Source: an uncultured Acidimicrobiales bacterium
GTDB lineage: Bacteria; Actinomycetota; Acidimicrobiia; Acidimicrobiales; Aldehydirespiratoraceae
Reading direction: 5' to 3'
Length of the DNA: 64,000 nucleotides
Assembly (NCBI GenBank): GCA_951812975.1
Contig: CATOTC010000001.1
Coordinates: forward strand, 496,001-560,000
Within the stretch, counting starts at the first letter, position 1; each line of letters opens with the position of its first letter. Below, piece after piece: positions 38,089 through 52,848 of the stretch. A program made the position numbers and the translations under genes. A model generated the notes under the pieces. It was not told the DNA's origin. It worked only from the letters and a program-made list of their open reading frames with translations, and searched no databases.

Positions 38089-41000
38089 CTAACTGCAACC
38101 GCTGGTGGTTCCGCAGGCACCGCACACAAAGCAGGCGCCGGCGCGTTGCATCGGCACCCCGCACGACATGCAGAAAGGCGCACCCGAACTGCCCTCAACC
38201 TCGAAGCAGAGCTGGGCGGCGGGGGCCGGAGCGGAGCGGTGAGGAGGAATATCGGATCCCTGCACGGTCTTGGTGACCTGCTCCTCGACCCCGGGCAGGG
38301 TCGGTTGGGTTCGTTCGTCGGTGGTCAGGATTCCGAGACTGGAACGTTCCTCGTCGCTCAGGTACATGACCGCGAGCCTGCGGAACAGATAGTCCATCAG
38401 ACTCGTGGCGATACGGATCTGCGGGTCGTCGGTCATACCGGCGGGCTCGAACCGCATGCCCACGAAAGCGCGCACGAAAGCACTCAGCGGAACGCCGTAC
38501 TGCAGGCCGTGGCTCAACGAGACAGCGAACGCGTCCATGATCCCCGCCAACGTGGAACCCTGCTTCGAGACCCGCACAAAAATCTCGCCCGGTCTTCCGT
38601 CGTCGTATTCGCCGACCGTCACGAAGCCCTTGCAGTCCGCGACTCGGAACTCGAACGTCCGGCTCGTGCGTGTCCGGGGCAGACGCTCACGAACCGGCTG
38701 ATTCACCGGCGCTGCGACAGCGCTCCGTGGGCGGCCGGCGCTCTGCGGATGGCCGGCGCTGTGCAGGAGACCGGCAATCTGCGGGCGGCCGGCGCTCTGC
38801 GGATGGCCGGCGCTGTGCAGGAGACCGGCAATCTGCGGGCGGCCGGCGCTCTGCGGATGGCCGGCGCTGTGCAGGAGACCGGCAATCTGCGGGCGGCCGG
38901 CGCTCTGCGGGGCCACCGGAGCGGCCTGTCGTGTCGCGGTGCTCCAACCGTCGAGGGTGGGTTCTGCCGACGCTTCCGGAGCTGTCGGCGCGTCGTCTGA
39001 GCGGTTCGAGGCAGCGTCTCCGGCGACGAGCGGCTGGGAGACCTTGCAGTTGTCGCGGTACAGCGCCACCGCCTTGAGACCCATCCGCCACGACTCAATG
39101 AGCAGCGACTCGATCTCGCCGACCGTGGCCTCCTCAGGAAGGTTGACCGTCTTGGAGATCGCTCCGGAAATGAACGGCTGCACCGCTCCCATCATCTTCA
39201 GGTGACCGAGGTAGTGGATCGCGTCGCTGCCCAACGAGCAGGCGAACACCCCGAGGTCCTTCGGGTCGAGCCCGGGGGCTCCGACCACACTGTGATGGGT
39301 GTTGATGTGGTCGATGATCGCCTCTACCGCATCCGGGCTGTAACCGAGGTTGCGCAGGGCGTGGGGCACCGACTGGTTGATCAGGCTCATCGTCCCGCCA
39401 CCGACCAGACGCTTGAGCTTCACCAATCCCAGGTCGGGTTCCACGCCGGTCGTGTCGCAGTCCATCAGCAGGCCGATCGTGCCGGTGGGCGCCAGAACCG
39501 TCGCCTGGGCATTGCGCACACCACTGGCCGCAGCCAACTCGCATGTCTGGTCCCAGGCGAGTTGTGCGGCCTCGAGAATCCGAGTCGGAGCCTCTTGTTC
39601 ATCCACATCGGCAACCGCCGCACGGTGCTGGTCGAGAACCCGCAGCATGTGCTCGCGGTTCTCGTTGAATCCGCTGAAAGGCCCCATGCGGGCCGCAAGC
39701 CTCGTTGACTGTATGTACGCCTCTGCGGTCATCAGTGCTGTGACCGAGGCGGCGACGGCTCGCCCTTCCTGTGAGTCGTAGGGCATTCCCAGTGTCATCA
39801 ACAGTGCCCCGAGGTTGGCGTAGCCGAGACCGAGTTGGCGGAAGTCTCTGGCGTTGCCGCCGATCCTCTCGGTGGGGTAGTCGGCGTTGCCGACGAGGAT
39901 CTCCTGGGCGGTGAAGACGATCCTCGCCGCATGCGCGAACCCCTCAATATCGAAACCGTCGACGCCGTCGCCGCTGTGGAAGGCCAGCAGGTTGAGCGAC
40001 GCCAGGTTGCAGGCCGAGTCGTCTATGTGCAGATACTCCGAGCAGGGATTGCTGGCGTTGATACGGCCGGTGTTCGCAGCGGTGTTCCAGTGGTTGATGG
40101 TGCTGTCGAATTGGATTCCCGGATCGGCACACTCCCAGGACGCCTGCGCAATCTGACGCAACAGGGCGCGGGCCTTGACGGTACGGGTCACTGATCCGTC
40201 GCCACGAGCAGTCAGAGCCCATTCGGAGTCGTCGACGACCGCCTGCATGAACTCATCGGTGACCCGCACAGAATTGTTGGCGTTCTGGTACTGGACCGAG
40301 TGGATGTCGGCGCCGTCGAGGGTCATGTCGAAGCCGGCTGCCTCCAGTGCATGCGCCTTGCGCTCCTCGCGCGCCTTGCACCAGATGAACTCCTCGACGT
40401 CGGGGTGATCGGCATCGAGAATCACCATCTTGGCGGCGCGGCGAGTCTTGCCGCCGGACTTGATGGTGCCCGCCGAGGCATCGGCTCCGCGCATGAAGCT
40501 CACCGGGCCGCTGGCCGTTCCGCCACCGCCCAGGCCCTCCGATGAGGCACGGATGCGCGAGAGGTTCACCCCGGCGCCGCTTCCTCCCTTGAAGATCCGG
40601 CCTTCCTCCGCGTACCAGTTGAGGATCGACTCCATGTTGTCGTCGACCGAGAGGATGAAGCACGCCGACGCCTGCTGGGGAACGCCCTCCACGCCGATGT
40701 TGAACCACACCGGCGAGTTGAACGCGGCCTTCTGGTTGACCAGCAGGTGGACGAGTTCGGCGCGGAAGCACTCGGCTTCGGATGCATCGGCGAAGTAGCC
40801 GTCACGCTCGCCCCAGGTGGTGATGGTGTCGACGATCCGAGAAACGACCTGGCGCAGCGACGACTCGCGCTCCGACGTGCCGAGCGTGCCGCGGAAGTAC
40901 TTCTGAGCGAGGATGTTGGTGGCGTTCTGGCTCCATGACTGGGGTACCTCAACCGCGAGCTGCTCGAAGGTCACAGAGCCGTCGCGATGATCGATCAACC

Positions 41001-42304: not shown

Positions 42305-42748
42305 TCACTCGAGCAGGTTGGCGGGGATCACCAGTCGTTGACCGGGCTGCAATGTCGTTGAACCGGTCAGGTCGCTGAGCTCATCAACCAGCCGACGAGG
42401 GTCGGCGCCCGGATCGAGCCACGTGGCGATGCTCCAGAGAGTGTCGCCGGGCTGAACGACCACGACGACCGCGTCGAGGGACCGGGTGTCGGTGGTACTG
42501 GTCGACTGCGACGCGTTCCCGTACGACCAGAGGCCGACCACCAGCGAGAACACGACAGCGAGCACAATCAGGCGACGACGCCGGTACACCTCTGCGGGCT
42601 GGACGACACGGGGTCCATCAGTTCGGGGTCCATCAGTTCGGGGTCCATCAGTTCGGGGTCCATCAGTTCGGAATCCATAGGTTCTGGCGTCAGCAACACG
42701 CGGACGAACCGAACGGGAATCTGCTGGGTGGGTGAGGATTGCAGTCAT
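42305..42748 (-). CDS. LysM membrane protein next to lexA (SOS cell-division suppressor candidate)
   Basis: A 147-residue protein: a cytoplasmic basic/proline-rich region containing four RTDGP repeats (about residues 27-46), one membrane helix (RLIVLAVVFSLVVGLWSYG), and a C-terminal LysM domain (VVVQPGDTLWSIATWL, LQPGQRLVIP) outside the membrane. A small TM-LysM gene divergent from lexA under LexA boxes matches the arrangement of YneA of Bacillus, DivS of Corynebacterium and Rv2719c (ChiZ) of Mycobacterium, which delay division during DNA damage. GGAG precedes the ATG at 42748. Function here is inferred. Confidence 0.82.
   Translation of the reverse strand: MTAILTHPADSRSVRPRVADARTYGFRTDGPRTDGPRTDGPRTDGPRVVQPAEVYRRRRLIVLAVVFSLVVGLWSYGNASQSTSTTDTRSLDAVVVVVQPGDTLWSIATWLDPGADPRRLVDELSDLTGSTTLQPGQRLVIPANLLE
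42606..42668 (-). repeat. 15-bp in-frame tandem repeat (RTDGP-encoding) in the LysM gene
   Basis: About four copies of a 15-bp unit (plus-strand CATCAGTTCGGGGTC, reading CGAACTGATGGACCC in the gene) encode RTDGP repeats in the cytoplasmic N-terminal region of the LysM protein. Copies are nearly identical, suggesting that copy number can change by slippage. Confidence 0.85.
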
Positions 42749-42826
42749 GGCTCCATTGTTCTCCTGGGGTGTGACACTCACCGGCGTATGAGAGTGCTGG
42801 TGAGAATCTTGAGAAGATGCTTGACA

Positions 42827-42899
42827 TCGAACGAATGTTTGGCGAACATATGTCTGTCGAACATCCGTTCGGTACTATTGAACACGAACAGACGTTCGA
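42827..42899. promoter_or_regulatory. Array of LexA boxes between the LysM gene and lexA
   Basis: Four 16-bp sites resemble TCGAAC-N4-GTTCGA: 42827-42842 (TCGAAC-GAAT-GTTTGG), 42842-42857 (GCGAAC-ATAT-GTCTGT, weak), 42857-42872 (TCGAAC-ATCC-GTTCGG, strong) and 42884-42899 (ACGAAC-AGAC-GTTCGA, strong). A TACTAT -10-like element (42873-42878) lies between the last two, and TTGACA (42821-42826) is a possible -35. The array lies between the two genes, so LexA can repress both. Confidence 0.88.
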
Positions 42900-42958
42900 T
42901 GTCAACAACAAGCCTGTAATTTCCACGTTGGCGATTTCCACCACCCACGGAGGCGACC

Positions 42959-43585
42959 ATGCCCGACACGCTCACAACCCGGCAGCGGGAGATACTCGAC
43001 ATGATCATCTCCCACGTAAACGAACGCGGCTATCCCCCATCGGTGCGCGAGATCGGTGAAGCGGTCGGCCTGCGCTCCCCCGCCACCGTCAAGTCCCATC
43101 TCGACAACCTTCGAGACGCCGGATACCTGAAGCGCGACCTGGCGAAGCCCCGGGCGATACAGGTCAGCTACGAAGGGACAGGCAGCGGCGCTGAGCACCG
43201 GCCGGTGCGCCACATTCCGCTCGTCGGCGACGTCGCCGCCGGAACCGACGTCCTTGCGGAGAGCAATGTCGAAGAGTTCGTTCCCATGCCCGAAGACCTC
43301 ACCGGTCGGGGCGAACTGTTCATGCTGCGGGTGCGGGGCGACTCGATGATCGAGGCGGGGATCTTCGACGGAGACTTCGTCGTCTGCCGCCACCAGGAGA
43401 CCGCAGAGGACAACAAGATCGTCGTAGCGGGAATCGGGGACAACGAGACCACCGTCAAGACGCTGCGGCGCCGCAACGGTTCGGTGGTCCTGGTCCCCGC
43501 CAACTCCGAGTACCCGGAGATGGTCTTCAAGCCCGACGAGGTGCAGATCTTCGGTCAGGTCGTCACCGTGATGCGCAAGCTCTAG
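42959..43585 (+). CDS. lexA: LexA repressor
   Basis: A 208-residue SOS repressor. The N-terminal winged HTH (LTTRQREILDMIISHV, PSVREIGEAVGLRSPATVKSHLDNL) is followed by the peptidase domain: cleavage site Ala94-Gly95, nucleophile Ser129 in GDSM, and Lys167 in TTVKTL. Self-cleavage stimulated by RecA lifts repression. Three good LexA boxes lie upstream, so it is autoregulated, and a further box controls recA in this window. Start ATG at 42959 follows GGAGG. Confidence 0.97.
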   Translation: MPDTLTTRQREILDMIISHVNERGYPPSVREIGEAVGLRSPATVKSHLDNLRDAGYLKRDLAKPRAIQVSYEGTGSGAEHRPVRHIPLVGDVAAGTDVLAESNVEEFVPMPEDLTGRGELFMLRVRGDSMIEAGIFDGDFVVCRHQETAEDNKIVVAGIGDNETTVKTLRRRNGSVVLVPANSEYPEMVFKPDEVQIFGQVVTVMRKL

Positions 43586-52701: not shown

Positions 52702-52819
52702 TGTCTTTTCTCCTGTTTTGTTTGCTGCGCCTCGCAGCTGAGTTGTGGGGGATGTTGGATTGCTGGACTCGAACTTACGGAGGGGGTGTGACACAGTCCC
52801 ACCAAGGACGAACGACACA

Positions 52820-52848
52820 ATTGTAATTGCGAACATCCGTTCGGTCAA
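52820..52848 (-). promoter_or_regulatory. recA promoter with embedded LexA box
   Basis: On the minus strand: TTGACC (52843-52848), 17-bp spacer, TACAAT (52820-52825), a near-consensus promoter. The spacer and -35 end contain CCGAAC-GGAT-GTTCGC (52829-52844), the same core as the strong LexA box before lexA. LexA binding would block RNA polymerase. It lies about 120-150 bp upstream of the GTG start. Confidence 0.9.

Follow-up and report, generated by a model that had tools for sequence, protein, structure and literature searches.

The gene divergent from lexA in the analysed window, a stretch of 64,000 nucleotides from an uncultured Acidimicrobiales bacterium, is quite probably the Acidimicrobiia counterpart of chiZ/Rv2719c and would, judged from its sequence and by analogy, encode a DNA-damage-induced, membrane-anchored septation inhibitor. 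Its architecture, its conserved position, the LexA boxes, a conserved PafBC-type element and genes for PafBC-like proteins were observed directly. The earlier note had proposed a membrane protein with a LysM domain that shares an array of LexA boxes with lexA and probably suppresses division in the SOS response. The shared array and the architecture were borne out by the open reading frame, its Pfam LysM match, the TIGR00498 match of lexA and four boxes. Control by LexA and the suppressor reading gained good support from the conserved lexA-divergent position, the boxes, the combination of transmembrane (TM) helix and LysM domain and the slot known from Rv2719c and YneA, while the effect on division itself stays a prediction. 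LexA control is probably not the whole of it, as a putative PafBC-type promoter was located immediately before the LysM gene.

The LysM gene (42305..42748, - strand) is best taken to start with the ATG at 42748 and then encodes 147 amino acids plus stop, divergent from lexA (42959..43585, + strand; TIGR00498, E 5e-64), the sole LexA match of the genome. A GTG start at 42781 (158 aa), given in the list of open reading frames, was dropped in favour of the ATG, because the relatives share an MTA start, the conserved upstream element fixes the distance and the word upstream of the ATG is read in differing frames between genomes (SVTPQE, VSHPRS). By this comparison, the word is conserved as nucleic acid. 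From its N-terminus, the encoded protein consists of a variable tail rich in Arg and Pro, a single TM helix (model residues 52-77; 42518..42595, - strand) and a LysM domain (residues 97-143; 42320..42460, - strand; Pfam, E 3e-7; also found in the model) predicted to lie outside the membrane. The helix was assigned from hydropathy, the model and conservation of VYRRRRL, and the YRRRR motif at its start indicates an N-in orientation by the positive-inside rule. Among the relatives, the tails vary from 20 to 113 residues, are mostly net positive and show little sequence conservation ahead of VYRRRRL and the TM helix. AlphaFold2 (17 sequences) modelled the TM helix and the LysM domain, the latter as a beta-alpha-alpha-beta fold, with confidence and the tail with low confidence; at a mean pLDDT of 69, the TM and LysM parts alone were usable. 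The best PDB match of the model in Foldseek was a bacterial LysM chain (E 0.03, every match to LysM chains having E > 0.001), and a PDB sequence search returned the same entry (E 0.011). No catalytic domain was found in the protein.

Using CGAAC-N4-GTTYG as the LexA-type box pattern, four boxes common to lexA and the LysM gene were located on the + strand of their intergenic region: box 1 CGAACGAATGTTTG (42828..42841), box 3 CGAACATCCGTTCG (42858..42871) and box 4 CGAACAGACGTTCG (42885..42898), all exact, and the degenerate box 2 CGAACATATGTCTG (42843..42856). Boxes 1 to 3 keep a 15-bp register (42828, 42843, 42858), with box 2 lying 15 bp from both its neighbours, and box 3 is identical to the box before recA (52830..52843, + strand). 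Two sigma70-like promoters were predicted here, TTGACA-N17-TTCAAT for the LysM gene (42877..42905, - strand) with box 4 in its spacer and TTGACA-N17-GAACAT, with a weak -10, for lexA (42821..42849, + strand) with box 1 in its spacer; they face each other and would overlap. Because the -10 elements agree with the consensus at 2-4 of 6 bases and are thus weak, this layout is a proposed one. Among the 27 closest loci, all of one family, TTGAC is placed at the array so as to drive lexA in 27/27 and, read as GTCAA, so as to drive the LysM gene in 26/27, either way with one LexA box inside the spacer of a sigma70-like promoter.

The box pattern was clearly enriched. In the window, 27 matches with up to one mismatch were counted versus 12.3 expected, and none of 100 shuffles reached 27. 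The 450 bases upstream of 57 related lexA loci held a mean of 3.3 boxes versus 0.016 in shuffles; with up to one mismatch, at least one box was present in 56 and at least two in 53 of the 57. Genome-wide, the exact CGAACNNNNGTTYG was found 24 times forward and 21 times reverse, versus 6 and 5 for the reversed pattern. Ten genome loci around CGAACNNNNGTTYG sites were examined; at six the box stands directly before a gene for repair or for a topoisomerase, and at the other four no clear repair gene was seen. Of the six, five were assigned by family searches, namely dnaE2-type, imuA', uvrA, a DEDD exonuclease that has a UvrC-like part and a gyrA-/gyrB-type locus, and one, a further uvrA-like copy, only by eye. 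Given the sites before recA, dnaE2-, imuA'- and uvrA-type genes, the LexA box may be taken as validated within the same genome. Boxes before a gyrB/parE-type (L167:1537) and a gyrA/parC-type gene (L167:5030) suggest that a type II topoisomerase is under SOS control. The two uvrA-like genes (L165, L166) have near-identical starts and are separated by ~6.5 kb; a LexA box lies 35 nt before each of them.

Conservation was analysed in 61 genomes, the window's own among them; lexA was found in 57. An open reading frame for a TM+LysM protein was found divergent from lexA in 52 of the 57 loci, and Pfam called LysM in 45 of the 52 proteins. For this count the best open reading frame per locus was kept, since the iterated HMM had drifted to antisense frames (92 matches), and three loci were removed by hand: L021 (contig end), L033 (a false match, no LysM gene by lexA) and L105 (truncated after the TM helix, no LysM). 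At the other two, L034 and L091, a RibD_C-like gene, recognised by eye, adjoins lexA. The gene is absent in 2/57 loci and its LysM domain lost in 1/57, and it is therefore dispensable in some lineages. At L105 (genome G009) the TM part was kept next to lexA, with the LysM domain lost and no LexA box left.

For the phylum, 149 genomes were searched with the 52-member profile built from Acidimicrobiia only; the profile matched 99 and LexA 144 of them. In 89 genomes the position of the best match was checked: in 57 it is divergent from lexA at a distance of at most 1.5 kb, in 3 it lies further from lexA, in 22 it lies elsewhere, and 7 could not be placed. All 20 phylum loci fetched carried a profile-matching open reading frame and at least one LexA box, and seven of them the strict TGTC(A/G)-N11-TAnnnT. 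Within Actinomycetota, the low sequence similarity that the earlier note ascribed to such proteins was thus overstated, as a profile made from Acidimicrobiia alone finds members beside lexA throughout the phylum. The results point to the lexA-divergent LysM inhibitor as a phylum-wide partner of lexA; Rv2719c has been termed mycobacterium-specific in a paper title. The gene nrdR, recognised by its zinc-ribbon motif, is next downstream on the same strand in 17/20 class loci outside the window's family, in 8/20 phylum loci and in 0/32 loci of the window's family. In Mycobacterium, ChiZ/Rv2719c stands beside lexA and nrdR comes next.

Directly before the LysM gene, a putative PafBC-type promoter, TGTCACACCC-N6-AACAAT (42755..42776, - strand), was identified downstream of all LexA boxes relative to this gene. 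It ends 6 bases before the ATG; the distance from the motif start to this ATG is 28 nt, a spacing compatible with leaderless transcription. In the LysM loci of the relatives, TGTCACACCC is found 28-30 nt ahead of the start codon. With starts re-examined and a minimum of 8 matches over the 10 bases, the motif was present in 44/52 loci (an earlier count with stricter threshold and uncorrected starts gave 40). The -10 A and T follow 16 nt on in 43 of these 44 (background 3.5%), and an in-frame start lies 27-30 nt after the motif start in 41. The motif was missing in 8/52 loci, though PafC was matched in 7 of the 8 genomes concerned; as PafC was found in 60/61 relatives (the window's genome counted), its presence cannot explain which loci are without motif. 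The sole genome without PafC (G057, locus L099) is also without motif.

Within the genome, 16 exact TGTCACACCC copies were found versus 2 of the reversed pattern. TAnnnT follows at the same offset in 7 and nAnnnT in 4 more, and 10/16 have an ATG or GTG 28-29 nt on. The genes behind these copies include recA, rmuC, a C-5 DNA methylase, a PD-(D/E)XK nuclease and DUF222/HNH proteins. The element before recA (start 52677, - strand) reads TGTCACACCC-N6-TAAGTT (52772..52793, - strand), and the recA region carries both this and a LexA box. An adjacent PafB/PafC-like WYL pair, one with HTH_PafC (1.8e-21), is encoded directly beside pafA, prcA and prcB. Four DUF222/HNH-type genes (L176, L177, L186, L187, around position 1501; two Pfam-checked) have near-identical promoters, TGTCACACCC-N6-TAAGGT, that reach up to the start codon, and form a multicopy, apparently damage-inducible family. 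At L181 and L182 (own genome, contig C2, 114-117 kb) two TGTCACACCC copies, likely due to chance, stand in direct repeats that resemble those of CRISPR loci, and L183 holds a possible cas gene.

Among the described systems, ChiZ of M. tuberculosis is one of the closest. It comprises a disordered cytoplasmic tail, one TM helix, a linker and LysM, and its tail and TM were reported sufficient for filamentation (PMC7355643); its LysM domain was reported as not needed (PMC3989709), unlike that of YneA. The window protein resembles ChiZ/Rv2719c in its slot beside lexA, in the order of tail, TM and LysM and in its predicted control by SOS boxes and PafBC, the comparison being one of position, architecture and predicted control. 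It differs in the tail sequence and in a proximal promoter that directly abuts the ATG, and its family has a RibD_C-like gene instead of nrdR downstream. With YneA of Bacillus and Listeria it shares the divergent place beside lexA, probable SOS control, a single TM helix and a predicted extracellular LysM domain. The cytoplasmic tail of YneA is short; that of the window protein is longer, and the PafBC-type promoter is additional. The YneA profile was the best NCBIfam match (4e-7) and matched 28/52 relatives. Identity with the YneA equivalog NF010723 was rejected, as the score of ~30 bits falls below the cut-off of 60 and 24.6 of the 30 bits come from LysM; the TM half alone gave no match to the YneA profile. 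According to a published report (PMC13396833), YneA binds FtsW through its TM helix, LysM binding is needed to block septal synthesis, the LysM residues D, T and terminal I matter, and ChiZ was predicted to act like YneA, with models that its authors did not rate as of high confidence. By eye, these residues correspond to GDT (101-103) and VIP near 142 of the window protein. Three proteins of the FtsW/RodA family are encoded in the genome. DivS (Corynebacterium) and SosA (Staphylococcus) are likewise lexA-adjacent, SOS-induced, single-TM division inhibitors, but as described they are without LysM (PMC6851548).

The nature of the proximal element had to be weighed. Published forms are tTGTCRgtg-8-TannnT for the RecA-independent promoter (PMC5656591) and, among the M. 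tuberculosis PafBC motif variants listed, TGTCAC-N10-TA-N3-T (PMC8151990). In sequence, TGTCACACCC-N6-nAnnnT resembles this PafBC (RecA-independent) promoter. For the LysM gene, the TGTC(A/G)-type -26 element and the spacing agree, and the -10 (AACAAT) misses its first T; almost all LysM loci have a base other than T there, versus T in 7/16 genome motif sites. This missing T, and the location of TGTCACACCC by the Shine-Dalgarno (SD) sequence in the predicted leader, would also fit an element that acts in the leader or the translation of an mRNA driven by the LexA-controlled promoter; as the SD overlaps the proximal -10 in many loci, part of the conservation could be translational. We consider such a reading rather unlikely, since TGTCACACCC occurs with TAnnnT at the same spacing before recA, rmuC and DUF222/HNH genes and fits both published forms. 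The likeness to the PafBC (RecA-NDp) regulon comprises the TGTCAC-N10-nAnnnT element, the PafB/PafC-like pair beside pafA and recA with LexA box and element, and the differences are the first -10 base of the LysM gene and the leaderless-compatible spacing. Based on this likeness, the motif at recA and the encoded PafB/PafC-like pair, the LysM gene is probably under two stacked damage promoters, one LexA-repressed and one PafBC-activated, as reported for M. tuberculosis rv2719c, whose operon is controlled by SOS boxes and a PafBC motif (PMC8151990; the text prints Rv2019c, the supplement legend rv2719c).

The protein could also be a damage-induced envelope protein and no division inhibitor, its LysM anchor helping to reinforce or remodel peptidoglycan under stress. 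LysM domains have many roles, the hint at division comes from architecture and position only, and the YneA cut-off was missed; nevertheless, this is unlikely, as slot, regulators and topology are those described for YneA and ChiZ (PMC6851548, PMC13396833) and no catalytic domain was found. A further alternative concerned the RTDGP region, which the earlier note had singled out as unfamiliar and recommended for comparison. The perfect tandem repeat encoding RTDGP (42609..42671, - strand; 15 bp x 4.2 copies, 100% identical) is real, and cytoplasmic by predicted topology, and might be a module with a specific function, for instance a tail that binds the divisome or the membrane, making the protein a new variant. 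However, the comparison of relatives revealed tandem RTDGP in 1/52, this genome alone, and the nearest relative's protein, 84% identical, is without it. A family feature was thereby ruled out, and a disordered cytoplasmic tail had already been described for ChiZ (PMC7355643). The window's nrdJ (class II ribonucleotide reductase) contains a perfect in-frame 54-bp tandem repeat (38729-38910, 3.4 copies) before the TSCPD domain, and because of this similarity RTDGP looks like recent slippage. Read this way, the repeat is a recent expansion of the variable tail, and a functional module is very improbable.

For the septation inhibitor under dual control we infer a mechanism in which LexA and PafBC binding, leaderless transcription, the target and division arrest are all predicted. 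In the absence of damage, LexA on the four-box array would shut off lexA as well as the LysM gene's distal promoter. Upon damage, RecA filaments would trigger LexA cleavage, yielding a leadered, SD-carrying mRNA of the LysM gene. Independently, PafBC activated by single-stranded DNA would bring RNA polymerase to the TGTCACACCC promoter next to the start codon, giving a leaderless mRNA. The protein would insert N-in/C-out, its TM helix may dock on the divisome (in analogy to YneA, on TM7 of FtsW), and the LysM domain would bind newly made glycan at the septum, stopping septal synthesis until the DNA is repaired.

Tentatively, the pair of lexA and TM-LysM gene with two independent damage inputs, a LexA-repressed distal leadered and a PafBC-type proximal leaderless one forming an OR gate on division, could be ancestral to Actinomycetota. 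No earlier description of SOS/LexA or PafBC in Acidimicrobiia was found in a search that covered chiefly the open-access literature. A checkpoint known from a small number of cultured Gram-positives would be extended to a large class whose members are mostly uncultured. If the proposed control is true, the leaderless arrangement of the Acidimicrobiia would be a new variant of mycobacterial rv2719c control, and the OR gate would let cells arrest division even when RecA/LexA signalling fails. The comparison also provides evidence for dual control of division arrest by LexA and PafBC being old and conserved, and not a mycobacterial peculiarity.
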